Shown in pieces: positions 17,121 through 32,604 of a DNA stretch of 42,482 nt. This DNA comes from Myxococcales bacterium. Its GTDB lineage: Bacteria > Myxococcota_A > Polyangia > Polyangiales > Houyiibacteriaceae. The notes beneath the pieces were generated by a model, which saw only the letters and a program-made list of their open reading frames with translations, did no database searches and had not been told where the DNA came from. The DNA lies in assembly GCA_012744445.1 (NCBI GenBank), contig JAAYBZ010000180.1:1-42482 (forward strand), given 5' to 3'. Both the position numbers and the translations under genes were made by a program. The stretch's first letter is position 1, and every line of letters begins with the position of its first letter.

Positions 17121-18251
17121 ATGGCGGTGCTCCCGCGCGAGCTCGAATGCGTCGATCCCGGCGGGCGATTCGTCGCCGCGGCGCGCGCCTTCCTCGCGCG
17201 GCGCGGCGCCACGCTCGCGCCGGGTGCACGCGGTGTGCGCACCCTCACCTCGCTGCTCGTCGAGCACGCATGCGAGGACGACGGAAGCGGCGACGACGCC
17301 TTCGTCGAGGGCGCCGGCGCCTGCCTCGGCCTCCTCCTCGCGCACGCCTTCCGCGGAGAGACGCGTGCGCGCGAGGGCCAGCACCGCGTGCTCGTGGGCG
17401 AGCTCGGCACGATCGATCCCTTCGAACTCGTCGCGAGGGCCCTCGAGGCGGACGATCCTCGCGAGGCCTTCGCCCGCGCGCTCGAGGCGGCCGAAGCCGA
17501 GGCCAGAGGCGAGGGCCCCATCGCCTCCGCGCTCCGCACGTTCGCCGCCGCGCTCGACGAGCTCGGCGTCCCTCACCGGATCGCGGACCGCTTCGAGCTC
17601 GCCGTCACCCTCGACGACGGGACCGAGATCGACCTCTCGCGCGTCGCCGAGGCGCGCGAAGCCGGCCCCGCCATCGCGCGCCACCTCGCCCGCATGCTCC
17701 TCCCGCAAGAGGACGCGCGCGCGAGCTTCGCCGAGACCAAGGAGCGGATCCTCCCGCGCGTCGTGGGCGACGCCTTCCTCACGCGGCTCGGGGCCTCCGC
17801 CGCTGCGCTCGCCACCACGCGCGTCGCCGAGGGCCTCCACCTCGGGCTCATCGCGCACTTCGGCGATCGCGCGCGCTTCCTCCGACGCGACGAGCTCGAC
17901 GTGGCCGGCGAGCGCTTCGAGGACGTGGCGGCGCTCGCCTTCTCGCGGCTCCTCCGTCGGAGCCAGGACCTCGCCTTTCGTCGAGAGGGTGAGACCTTCG
18001 TGCTCGCCTCGCGCGACGGGCTCGACGCCGCGCGCATCCTGCTCCCCGGCCTCGCCCGCACGCTCGCCGGGATGCTCGGCGCGGTGCCGTACGTGGCCGC
18101 GCCGCACCGCGATCTCCTCCTCGCGTCGGCCGATCCCGAAGCGCTCGCGAAGGAGGCCGAGGACGCATACCGCCGCGCGCCGCACGGCGTCTCGCCACGC
18201 GTCTATCGCTTCGACGGCGAGCGCCTGAGCCCGCGGCCCTTCAGCCCGTGA
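17121..18251 (+). CDS. Hypothetical cytosolic protein, DUF1444-like C-terminus
   Basis: A 376-residue soluble protein with no signal or membrane segment. The N-terminal half is helical and acidic. The C-terminal half (AVPYVAAPHRDLLLASAD ... GVSPRVYRFDGERLSP) resembles the end of DUF1444/UPF0354 proteins, where a 'VPxRDxLL' strand is followed by an 'ISxxLF-dG' tail. I rate that match as plausible rather than certain. The function of that family is unknown. The gene is divergent from the DUF697 gene across a 75-base region with an inverted repeat, and its stop overlaps the tail of the kinase gene by 11 bases. Confidence 0.65.
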   Translation: MAVLPRELECVDPGGRFVAAARAFLARRGATLAPGARGVRTLTSLLVEHACEDDGSGDDAFVEGAGACLGLLLAHAFRGETRAREGQHRVLVGELGTIDPFELVARALEADDPREAFARALEAAEAEARGEGPIASALRTFAAALDELGVPHRIADRFELAVTLDDGTEIDLSRVAEAREAGPAIARHLARMLLPQEDARASFAETKERILPRVVGDAFLTRLGASAAALATTRVAEGLHLGLIAHFGDRARFLRRDELDVAGERFEDVAALAFSRLLRRSQDLAFRREGETFVLASRDGLDAARILLPGLARTLAGMLGAVPYVAAPHRDLLLASADPEALAKEAEDAYRRAPHGVSPRVYRFDGERLSPRPFSP

Positions 18252-19332
18252 GCGAAGGGCGCGAGCGCTCGGCCTCGTCGAGGTCGGGGATGCTCGTGCG
18301 GCGCCCGTGCGGATCGAGCTCGCGCGACTCGCTGTCGCGGATCCGCCGCGCGCTTCCGTCGACGAATCCGCCCATACCCAGGAGGTGCAGCTCGACCACC
18401 TCGGCCACCTGCTGAGGCCCGACGGGCTCGGAGACCGCGTCGATGGCGCGCTGGATCTCGCGCGCGGCCGTGGATGCGTCGGGGATGCGCGCGTCGGGAT
18501 CGGGCTCGAGGAGCCCGTCGAGGAGGCGCTGGACGACCTCGGGCGCCTCCACCCCGACCTCGGCGAGGCGAGGCACCTCGCAGCGCATCACCTTGAACAA
18601 GGTCTCGCGATCGTCTTCGTGGTGGAAGAGCCGCCGGCCGACGAGCGTCTCCCAGAGCACGATGCCCATCGCGAAGACGTCGACGCGGTGATCGGAGGGC
18701 TTCTGTTTGACGACCTCGGGCGCGAGGTAGCCGAATTTGCCGCCGACCATGTGCGGCTCGCGCACGGTGCGGTTGGTGCGCGAGTCGGAGAGGCCGAAGT
18801 CGGCGAGCTTCACCTGGCCTTCGCGGCCGAGGAGGACGTTGTGCGGCGAGACGTCGCGGTGCACGATCCCGAGCGTCTCTCCCGTCTCGTCGACGAGGCC
18901 GTGCGCATAGGAGAGGCCCTTGGCGAGCTCGCGCATCACGTAGAGCGAGAGCCCGAGCGAGAGCACGGGGCTCCCAGCGCGCGTGCGATCGACGAGGCCC
19001 TTGAGCGAATCGCCCTCCACGAGCTCCATGACCATGGAGCGCGCGCCGTCGACGTGCGTTGCGTCGAGCATGCGGACCAGGTTGGGGTGGACGAGGTAAC
19101 GGCCGAGCCGCACCTCGTCCTCGAACATCGAGAGGAAGACGTCGGACTCGAGCCCGGGCCGGATGCGCTTGAGCGCGACGCGCTCGACCTCGCCGTCCTC
19201 GAAGATGGCGTCGGAGAGCCAGACCTCGGCCATGCCGCCGCGGCCGATGAGATCGAGCGGGCGATAGCCGACCGCGCGCGCGCCGCGATCGAAGCGCGAA
19301 CGAGTCGCTCGTCGTTCAGCCGCGCCGCTCAT
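18241..19332 (-). CDS. Cytosolic Ser/Thr protein kinase (Hanks type)
   Basis: A 363-residue kinase with all key motifs: the nucleotide loop GRGGMAEVW (30-38), VALKR with Lys55, catalytic HRDVSPHNVLL with Asp160, DFGLSD with Asp178, and YLAPEV. 'SPHN' in place of 'KPEN' is common in myxobacterial kinases. After the kinase fold (to about 275) comes a helical tail of roughly 90 residues with no transmembrane segment and no sensor domain, so it is soluble. An in-frame open stretch extends further upstream, but the ATG at 19332 gives the right kinase N-terminus. The start overlaps the upstream methyltransferase gene by 17 bases, implying coupled translation. Substrate unknown. Confidence 0.9.
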   Translation of the reverse strand: MSGAAERRATRSRFDRGARAVGYRPLDLIGRGGMAEVWLSDAIFEDGEVERVALKRIRPGLESDVFLSMFEDEVRLGRYLVHPNLVRMLDATHVDGARSMVMELVEGDSLKGLVDRTRAGSPVLSLGLSLYVMRELAKGLSYAHGLVDETGETLGIVHRDVSPHNVLLGREGQVKLADFGLSDSRTNRTVREPHMVGGKFGYLAPEVVKQKPSDHRVDVFAMGIVLWETLVGRRLFHHEDDRETLFKVMRCEVPRLAEVGVEAPEVVQRLLDGLLEPDPDARIPDASTAAREIQRAIDAVSEPVGPQQVAEVVELHLLGMGGFVDGSARRIRDSESRELDPHGRRTSIPDLDEAERSRPSLTG

Positions 19333-21214
19333 CCTCTCCGTCCTTGCCGCCACCCCACGCGCAGAGCTCCCCCCACTCGGCGCGGAAGGATGCATCACAC
19401 GCAGCGAGCACGCCATCGAGCCCCTCGGGCTTTTCGCGAATTTTGTGATGTCCGACACGCCACTCCGCGGAGGATGCACGCGGACCGAGCCAGGCCGCGC
19501 GCAACGCCTCCCCTAGTCGAACGGCCTCGACGAAGGATTCCTTCCCTCGCGGGAGCGGAATTCGCGGGTAGTCCGCCCGGAGGGCCTCTTGAAACCGTGT
19601 CCGATAGGTCGAAGAAGCGAGCGTGGCGAGGACGTACAGGGCGACCTCGTCGGCGCTCGGCAGCGCGCCCGTGCGCTCGGTGATGGCGGCGGAGACGCGC
19701 GGCGAGACGTTGGGGCTTCCGTCGGGCGTATGCGTGGGGAAGGCCCGCGTACGGCAGGACGAGCGATTGCTGAAGTAGCAGTTGTCCGGGATCTCGCGGC
19801 TGACGGCGAAGTGGTTCCACTCCGCCTCGCCGCGGTCCTTCCGCACCGAGAGCAGCGCGAAGGACGAGCGGCGCATCGCCTCCGCGAGGTCGGGGCGCGG
19901 CCTGTGGCAGATCTCGCGGAGGGCGCAGAAGACCCGATCGTCGAAGGGGCGGTAGGCGAGGCGCCGCACGAGGTCGGGATCGTCGAGGCGCAGGGCCGCC
20001 TCCACCGCGCGTCGCGCACGCTCGGGGTCGTAGTGCGCCCTCTCCGCGCGGGCCTTCTCGAGCGCGGGATCCGGCTCGCCGGCCACGAAACGCTGGAGCC
20101 GCTCGCGGAGCGTGGCCTCGTCGGGCGCCACCACCGCGTCGTCGCGGTTGGTCTGCACGCCCTCGCGGTGGAAGGGGAAGATCTCGTCGAGGGAGACCCA
20201 GCCGTCGGGGAAGTCGGCGGCGATGGCGCTGAGGTCGAAGGCGAGGAGCGGTGGCCGCGGCGCGATGCGCCGGGTGATCGGTGTCTTCGCGGCGAGCAGG
20301 TCGAGCTTCTCCTCGCGGCTCCCGAAGAGGCGCGCGTAGCGGAGCCGCCCGGACTCGACGAGCTCGCCGTGGCCTCGCCGCCGCACGGCGAAGGTACAGG
20401 CCACCGAGGGGCGCACGCCGAAGACGTTCTCGTCGCGGACCTCGCCCTTGGAGAGGAGCGCGCTCCCGCCGAGGTCGAAGACCTCCACGTCGGAGAACCA
20501 CCGGAGGAGGGCCGCGCGCACGCCGCGATGCACCGGCCCGTCGAGGTAGGAGCCGTTGGTGACGAGCCCCAGCACGGCCGCGCCCTTCGCGCGCCGGCAG
20601 ATCTCGGCCGACCACCGGAGGAAGCGGACGTAGTCGTCGGAGAGGACGCCCGCCTTCTTCTCACCGAGCGGCTCGCCGCCGGTCGTGCGCCGGAAGTCGT
20701 CGAGGAGCGTGGCCGCGAGCGGCACGTCGGCGTTGGCGCTCTTGCCGGCCCAGGGCGGGTTGCCGAGGACGACGATCGCCTCGGACTCCAGCGGGAGCGC
20801 GAGCGATTCGAGCGTATTCCTCGCCTCGACGTGGAGGCGCGTCCCGCGCGCCGAGGCCAGGCCGTCGAGCGCGATCCGGCAGCTCTCGACGGCTTCTTCG
20901 TCGACGTCGAAACCGACGAGGGCGGCCGGGGCGCCCTTGCGGCCCTCGACGACCGAGAGCGCCGCGGCGAGGAACGCGCCGGTGCCGCAGGCGGGATCGA
21001 CGATCGTGACGCGCGGATCCGCGAGACCGCGGGCGATGCCGAGCTCGGCGCGGAGCAGCTCGTCGGCGCGGCGCGCCACGAAGCGGGCGAGCCTCCCCGG
21101 CGTGTGCACGACGCCGCGCGCGCGCTTGGTCTCCGGCGTGAGCGAGAGCGCGCGATCGCGGACCTCGCTCGTCACCCGGACGGCCCGCTCGGCCTCTGTC
21201 TCCACGAACGTCAC
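19316..21214 (-). CDS. Solitary N6-adenine DNA methyltransferase, type ISP/IIG-like
   Basis: A 632-residue protein with a gamma-class adenine methylase core. It has a motif X-like GVVHTPGRLARFVARR (34-49), motif I DPACGTGAF (73-81) and motif IV NPPW (152-155). The C-terminal half has the hallmarks of the type ISP specificity region: AYRPFDDR (420-427), then ISP-like TYRTRFQEALRADYPRIPLP (536-555). Known ISP enzymes such as LlaGI have nuclease and helicase domains before the methylase; here nothing precedes it, so it should methylate but not cut. The start is GTG, 9 bases after an extended -10. The next gene on the strand is a Ser/Thr kinase overlapping by 17 bases. No restriction gene is adjacent. 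Confidence 0.88.
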   Translation of the reverse strand: MTFVETEAERAVRVTSEVRDRALSLTPETKRARGVVHTPGRLARFVARRADELLRAELGIARGLADPRVTIVDPACGTGAFLAAALSVVEGRKGAPAALVGFDVDEEAVESCRIALDGLASARGTRLHVEARNTLESLALPLESEAIVVLGNPPWAGKSANADVPLAATLLDDFRRTTGGEPLGEKKAGVLSDDYVRFLRWSAEICRRAKGAAVLGLVTNGSYLDGPVHRGVRAALLRWFSDVEVFDLGGSALLSKGEVRDENVFGVRPSVACTFAVRRRGHGELVESGRLRYARLFGSREEKLDLLAAKTPITRRIAPRPPLLAFDLSAIAADFPDGWVSLDEIFPFHREGVQTNRDDAVVAPDEATLRERLQRFVAGEPDPALEKARAERAHYDPERARRAVEAALRLDDPDLVRRLAYRPFDDRVFCALREICHRPRPDLAEAMRRSSFALLSVRKDRGEAEWNHFAVSREIPDNCYFSNRSSCRTRAFPTHTPDGSPNVSPRVSAAITERTGALPSADEVALYVLATLASSTYRTRFQEALRADYPRIPLPRGKESFVEAVRLGEALRAAWLGPRASSAEWRVGHHKIREKPEGLDGVLAACDASFRAEWGELCAWGGGKDGEDERRG

Positions 21215-21281: not shown

Positions 21282-24106
<2,825 letters not shown>

Positions 24107-24110
<4 letters not shown>

Positions 24111-31709: not shown

Positions 31710-31721
31710 CCTACATATGGT
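31693..31721. promoter_or_regulatory. Operator-like dyad over the Dam-type methylase promoter
   Basis: ACCATAT (31693-31699) and ATATGGT (31715-31721) are perfect inverted arms 15 bases apart, 22 bp centre to centre, about two helical turns. The left arm is in the -10/-35 spacer; the right arm contains the start codon. A dimer bound here would shut the promoter. Confidence 0.55.
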
Positions 31722-32604
31722 TACAGCCGCCGCTCCGATCGCCTTCGAGAAGCCCACCCCCAAATCGCGTGTCCGCGAGGCCGCGCCCTTCGTGAAGTGG
31801 GTGGGCGGAAAAGGGAAGCTCGTCTCGCAGCTCCTCCCGCTCATGCCTGGGGGTGTCGAGAAGCGCCGGCACGTAGAGCCCTTCGTCGGCGGCGGCGCGC
31901 TCTTCTTCGCGATGCGCCCGCGGCGCGCGGTGCTCTCCGACGTGAACGAGCGCCTCGTGACCACCTACCTCGCCATCCGCGACGAGCTCCCCACCGTGAT
32001 CCGGCACCTCGAGGCGCTCGATCGCGCGCACTCCGACGCCACGTATTACGAGGTTCGCGACCGCTACAACACCGCGAGCCGCGTCTCCTCCGCCGAGCGC
32101 GCCGCGATGTTCGTCTACCTCAACAAGACGTGCTTCAACGGCCTGCACCGCGTGAACCGTCGCGGGCATTTCAACGTGCCTCTCGGGCGATACGAGAACC
32201 CGCGCATCGTCGATCACGAGGGTCTCGCCGCCGCGTCGCGGGCCCTCCGAGGCGCCGAGATCCGTCACGCGAGCTTCGAGGAGCTCCTCGCCTACGCCAA
32301 GCCCGGTGATTTCGTCTACTTCGATCCCCCCTACGCGCCCGTGAGCGCGACGGCGAATTTCACCAGCTACGCGGCGGGGGACTTCGGGGATGCCGATCAG
32401 GTGCGCCTGCGCGACGTCTACCGCGAGCTCGACCGACGCGGCTGCCGGTTGATGCTCTCCAACAGCGACGTCCCGCGCATCCGCGAGCTCTATCGGGATT
32501 ATCGGATCGAGATCGTCGCCGCGCCGCGCGCCATCAACTGCGACGCGCGGAAGCGCGGCCCGGTCACCGAGGTCGTCGTGCTGAATTACGACCCCGGCAG
32601 ATGA
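31717..32604 (+). CDS. Solitary Dam-type DNA adenine methylase
   Basis: A 295-residue alpha-class N6-adenine methyltransferase of the D12/Dam family. It has the SAM-binding FVKWVGGKGKLV (25-36), EPFVGGGALFF (54-64), the Dam signature NKTCFNGLHRVN..GHFNVPLGRY (136-159) and the catalytic DPPY (203-206). GATC is the usual family target, but specificity is not proven. I chose ATG 31717 over an open frame reaching upstream because the promoter overlaps that stretch. No cognate nuclease, MutH or SeqA is in the window, so it is an orphan. Codon use looks like that of its neighbours, so a recent transfer is not obvious. A hairpin spans its stop codon. Confidence 0.93.
   Translation: MVTAAAPIAFEKPTPKSRVREAAPFVKWVGGKGKLVSQLLPLMPGGVEKRRHVEPFVGGGALFFAMRPRRAVLSDVNERLVTTYLAIRDELPTVIRHLEALDRAHSDATYYEVRDRYNTASRVSSAERAAMFVYLNKTCFNGLHRVNRRGHFNVPLGRYENPRIVDHEGLAAASRALRGAEIRHASFEELLAYAKPGDFVYFDPPYAPVSATANFTSYAAGDFGDADQVRLRDVYRELDRRGCRLMLSNSDVPRIRELYRDYRIEIVAAPRAINCDARKRGPVTEVVVLNYDPGR

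Follow-up and report, generated by a model that had tools for sequence, protein, structure and literature searches.

A putative solitary adenine methyltransferase of a single myxobacterial order and its ancestral, separable Ser/Thr kinase neighbour

Restriction-modification (R-M) systems change specificity quickly. The Type IIG/ISP enzymes DrdV, LlaGI and LlaBIII have the same methyltransferase and target-recognition half as the protein described here (N6_Mtase plus Type_ISP_C). Stand-alone adenine methylases with a target-recognition domain (TRD) that are conserved in a lineage and vertically inherited offer a second comparison, above all CamA of Clostridioides difficile, but also CcrM and Dam. 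CamA is specific to its species and strictly conserved there (PMC13395437). Like the present locus, Pgl/Type 2 BREX combines an adenine methylase (PglX) with a Ser/Thr kinase (PglW), and both activities are among the components of MADS (MAD2 and MAD6). PglW is a protein of 1400–1600 aa with a NERD nuclease, two tandem kinase modules and a sensor half (PMC12839542), and control of the methylase PglX by this kinase through phosphorylation is a proposal (PMC4365076).

Here we compare with these systems a gene pair from a Myxococcales draft genome; the window is the whole stretch of DNA analysed, 42,482 nucleotides long. The initial annotation had presented the pair as a possible defence or epigenetic unit. 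The epigenetic half of this proposal is better supported than the defence half, as the methylase is solitary, appears vertically inherited and has a conserved TRD. With a probability of about 0.62, we interpret it as a domesticated solitary m6A methyltransferase that sets a fixed-motif epigenetic or housekeeping mark and is co-expressed with a soluble kinase. The features discussed are as follows.

17121..18251, plus strand: DUF1444-like gene of unassigned function, convergent with the kinase gene (11-bp tail overlap) and outside the co-directional unit.
18241..19332, minus strand: cytosolic Hanks-type Ser/Thr kinase, 363 aa, with an ATG start inside the MTase gene (Pfam, alignment, model, hydropathy).
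19316..19332, minus strand: 17-bp overlap of the MTase and kinase reading frames.
19316..21214, minus strand: solitary adenine-N6 DNA methyltransferase (MTase), 632 aa, with a GTG start (Pfam, invariant columns, AlphaFold model).
21282..24110, plus strand: B12/radical SAM and DUF2344 gene, divergent, 67 bp from the MTase start (Pfam, gene order).

The open reading frame and Pfam agree with the earlier description of a 632-residue ISP-type protein that unites methylase and specificity parts: MTase matches N6_Mtase (E 1.2e-8) and Type_ISP_C (E 4.7e-39), and Pfam detected no nuclease or helicase domain in it. It has the organization of a gamma-type N6-adenine methyltransferase with an ISP C-terminal specificity domain, and motifs I (DPACGTGAF, residues 73–81) and IV (GNPPW, residues 151–155) are intact in the alignment of orthologues. 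The TRD, which corresponds to Type_ISP_C (residues ~344–577) and is of the Type-ISP/IIG kind, contains the stretches EGVQTNRD, CHRPR and RSSCRTRAFP that are invariant among the aligned orthologues. Homology begins ~25 aa from the N-terminus. Distant MTase relatives in the phylum are mostly 1000–1270 aa long and carry 280–350 residues before the MTase domain; in one sampled fused relative, the ISP coupler is present along with a partial helicase domain. No such fused nuclease (or, for ISP enzymes, helicase or coupler) was found in MTase, which thereby differs from Type IIG/ISP enzymes, as it does in its length (632 versus 1000–1600 aa) and in its conserved rather than diversified TRD. No nuclease was detected by Pfam or PADLOC in MTase or in the neighbours scanned, although a distant nuclease acting in trans is conceivable, and the window's genome has no Type_ISP_C gene other than MTase.

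The AlphaFold model of MTase (mean pLDDT 87.2) ranked DrdV, LlaBIII and LlaGI as the best PDB folds, followed by the solitary enzymes M.BseCI and CamA, and the best PDB sequence matches were LlaGI, LlaBIII and DrdV. Besides DrdV and LlaGI, the fold thus matches CamA (TM 0.53–0.62), although the sequence identity of CamA to MTase is ~12–14% and, unlike CamA, MTase adjoins a kinase gene. BrxX folds ranked 49–50 (E ~1e-10, versus 2e-29 for DrdV).

Also confirmed is the 17-base overlap of MTase with a complete cytosolic Ser/Thr kinase gene on the same strand. The kinase matches Pkinase (E 7.9e-39), its in-frame ATG at 19332 is directly preceded by Shine-Dalgarno-like bases (GGAG/GAGG), and aligned orthologues back this N-terminus. 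All Hanks-type hallmarks are present, namely the glycine loop (GRGGMAEVW, consensus GxGGMAEVW), the VAIK lysine (K55), HRDVSPHN, DFG and APE, which are invariant or nearly so in 16 orthologues. Hydropathy revealed no transmembrane-like stretch (maximum KD19 1.09), and the C-terminal tail (residues 320–363) is flexible in the structure model. Kinase orthologues share RLSxxLRRAPTRYxP at the N-terminus and PLDPxxF at the C-terminus; both motifs are degenerate in the window's genus, whose kinase forms a long branch in the kinase tree. A scan of the locus found neither a sigma-70-like site nor a terminator and is uninformative at the 71% GC of this genome; a common promoter is plausible and co-transcription of MTase and kinase most likely.

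The pair is flanked by core metabolism, including menaquinone genes, acyl-CoA dehydrogenase, lipB, lpd and the radical SAM gene, and orthologue neighbourhoods are likewise metabolic where annotated. The DUF1444 assignment rests on the orthologue in genome G188 (24.6 bits, cut-off 23.8), the window copy having no Pfam match; by gene order this gene is a frequent kinase neighbour in relatives. PADLOC found no nuclease or defence match among ten neighbouring proteins, the sole match being a second adenine DNA methylase of the MethyltransfD12/Dam type at 31717-32604 on the plus strand, 10 kb from the pair (Pfam E 1e-60). PADLOC classes it as an 'orphan methyltransferase' (1e-92), and a relative lies near the same genes in the congener G296. 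The window's assembly (G000) contains two rpoB fragments, on contigs C68 and C202 (L150, L152). The native copy is the one on C202 (87% to G296). The copy on C68 reaches just 72%, so that this contig of the draft genome probably represents contamination.

Each protein was searched in 184 genomes of the window's order, and the surroundings of the matches were then compared. MTase orthologues (41–60% identity, one clear copy per genome) occur in 31 of the 184 genomes and six families (f1, f5, f7, f56, f57, f59). In 16 genomes from four of these families (f1, f5, f56, f59), the MTase gene lies directly upstream of the orthologous kinase gene; the two share a strand and are spaced by −17 to +80 bp. 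The initial annotation had allowed for chance adjacency and had held that the pair never being adjacent in relatives would count against a unit; given these 16 genomes, the pairing is not a matter of chance. A short overlap is found only in the window's genus, with −17 bp in the window and −4 bp in G296, and elsewhere the genes are +11 to +80 bp apart. The flanking genes in f5, f56 and f59 are unrelated ones, different from those in f1, so the pair has outlived its surroundings. A contig break coincides with the MTase–kinase junction in G420, and in G319 (f57) the two genes adjoin but are convergent.

The pairing is not obligatory either. Both genes are present but apart in six genomes, i.e., the Sandaracinus-type G178 (312 kb apart), G422 and G423 as well as G417, G418 and G298. 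Six f7 genomes encode MTase without an orthologous kinase; conversely, genus g2 and G081, which belong to the window's family, encode the kinase without MTase, which is therefore dispensable. Where the available g2 sequence extends far enough, the kinase gene directly adjoins the radical SAM gene, a housekeeping flank that marks the syntenic site, and MTase thus appears to have been deleted in place. The kinase gene is about as often near a convergent DUF1444-like gene, beyond which lie acyl-CoA dehydrogenase, enoyl-CoA hydratase and RidA-like genes, and its link to MTase is therefore non-exclusive. A conserved linkage of the kinase to other genes instead of MTase had been named as evidence against the unit. 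This was found in part: the kinase keeps the metabolic cluster even in Sandaracinus, where MTase has moved away from it, but the linkage to MTase is conserved as well.

Other solitary ISP-type methylases of Myxococcota, short (686 aa) or mid-length (750–840 aa), were found at L186:1349-3409 (plus strand) and L187–L191 and may possibly represent sister families of domesticated methylases. None of these six loci has an orthologous kinase gene alongside, and the pairing is therefore specific to the present clade. Among the papers searched on solitary methylases of myxobacteria, control of methylases by kinases, MADS and Sandaracinus, none dealt with the MTase–kinase pair.

The rpoB tree, for which frames were chosen by BLAST, served as species reference. 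In it, a long branch with full support sets the outgroup f7 apart from all other genomes, and the linked state occurs among the latter. The MTase tree matches the rpoB tree in that f7, f5 and the genomes with separated genes are each split from the remainder by one branch, but support is weak for many of its inner branches. Within Sandaracinaceae, the MTase and kinase trees show concordant sub-branches. Both trees are compatible with vertical inheritance, and the simplest account of the linkage would be one origin followed by separations and losses.

Genomes of 84,980 species were scanned for the TRD signatures EG[VL]Q[TS]NRD and RSSCR[TAS]R[AV]FP. All 27 confirmed loci are in myxobacterial records or in bins, some of them deltaproteobacterial, matching genomes that belong to the window's order, and the signature is thus confined to this group among the species scanned. 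At 45–60% catalytic identity, the ratio of TRD to catalytic identity has a median of 0.93 in solitary orthologues (308 pairs) and lies at 0.64–0.83 in nuclease- or helicase-fused relatives (16 pairs), which even at 76–85% catalytic identity have ratios of 0.62–0.76; the matched fused comparison comprises 16–20 pairs that are not independent, and solitary and fused proteins are unequal in age and in how they were sampled. By these ratios, the TRD of MTase is conserved, not turned over as in the fused relatives. Apart from the absences in g2 and G081 and several weak branches, the alignments and trees are consistent with vertical, lineage-wide conservation at a putatively constant specificity.

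MTase is solitary, its TRD is conserved, the TRD signature is lineage-restricted and the tree follows the families, which together make up the profile of a domesticated methylase. Such an enzyme, lacking the N-terminal nuclease/helicase part, would derive from Type IIG/ISP stock and would methylate one fixed DNA motif chromosome-wide in vivo. The TRD would read the same motif in all members, and the resulting mark would be epigenetic or housekeeping like those of CamA, CcrM and Dam, with a presumed effect on transcription or replication. MTase and the soluble Ser/Thr kinase would be co-expressed as an ancestral two-gene unit, in which the kinase might conceivably phosphorylate MTase directly. 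Two points may weigh against a solitary mark, namely that MTase seems dispensable, being missing from g2 and G081, and that relics of R-M systems can persist too.

How the kinase relates to this methylase can be read in two ways. An ancestral rearrangement may have placed the kinase behind MTase, with the linkage kept by inertia or shared transcription and no functional coupling; we consider this possible, if rather unlikely. A single ancestral origin of linkage would be enough for it, the kinase is about equally linked to the DUF1444-like/acyl-CoA dehydrogenase cluster without a functional tie, and the genes separate without loss in six genomes. It is harder to reconcile with a spacing within 80 bp and with retention of the pair in f5, f56 and f59 despite replaced genes on both sides. 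Mirror-tree analysis gave a partial correlation between MTase and kinase rates of 0.59 given rpoB (20 genomes). On shared genomes, MTase–kinase correlations were 0.28–0.45, versus 0.16–0.56 for either protein with the neighbour genes F2 or F3. Specific coevolution of MTase and kinase was rejected, and the value of 0.59 was not counted as evidence, because the unrelated neighbours covary as much. The absence of a specific signal suits neutral adjacency and stands against the second reading.

According to that second reading, a cytosolic signal would make the kinase phosphorylate MTase or an MTase-binding protein, and methylation would be switched in this way, which would couple signalling to epigenetic state. 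The tight co-directional linkage across four families, the intact active sites of both enzymes, the continued neighbourhood of the convergent genes in G319 and the precedent of PglW, proposed to control PglX by phosphorylation (PMC4365076), are in its favour. Against it, the genes survive singly (MTase alone in f7, the kinase alone in g2 and G081) or apart (Sandaracinus, G417/G418), and this persistence of each gene without the other argues against an obligate two-component device. On balance we regard kinase gating as unlikely. Slightly more doubtful still is its fuller version, in which a Hanks kinase dedicated to the epigenetic, vertically inherited methylase of the same operon would switch it and so turn a cytosolic signal into heritable methylation, possibly for predation or development.

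Sharing the two activities of PglX and PglW or of MAD2 and MAD6, the pair could in principle be a reduced Pgl/BREX- or MADS-like phage defence made up of methylase and kinase only, as the initial annotation had suggested for Pgl/BREX. There are weak matches to the mad2, mad6, PglW and PD-T4-6 models, which lie far below the cut-offs (MTase, 14.5 of 720 bits for MAD2; kinase, 106.6 of 460 for MAD6 and 29.4 of 990 for PglW). The PD-T4-6, mad6 and PglW matches are generic, because three unrelated control kinases of the same order reach similar or higher scores, and membership in Pgl/BREX or MADS was rejected. MTase has no NCBIfam BREX PglX match at E<=0.01 and is not PglX by profile, and the kinase has 363 aa, unlike PglW. 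As noted earlier for PglY and PglZ, the window genes and the Pfam and PADLOC annotation of the neighbours revealed no PglZ, PglY/BrxC, BrxD, BrxHI or other defence gene and no further mad genes. With partner genes missing, cut-offs widely missed, PglX/BrxX folds matching much more weakly than DrdV or CamA, a core chromosomal housekeeping locus that is lineage-restricted and without sign of horizontal spread, a tree that follows the species and full-length PglW encoded at other loci of two genomes in the set (G188, G213), we dismiss a reduced defence system as very improbable. Working like the PglW–PglX regulation, as distinct from being a member of that system, is a possible analogy.

The pair is real and conserved, and our best reading is a probable CamA/CcrM-like solitary methylase that is confined to one order of myxobacteria and has a kinase neighbour of ancestral origin from which it can separate. 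If true, Sandaracinaceae-type myxobacteria would have a lineage-specific epigenetic methylase comparable to CcrM and CamA, and the kinase would be a candidate signalling input to it. Control of a chromosomal methylase by phosphorylation would be new as a regulatory link outside phage defence; in Pgl it is proposed, not proven. Should the kinase have no relation to the methylase, the locus would still clearly exemplify how an R-M enzyme with a now frozen TRD becomes a housekeeping mark.
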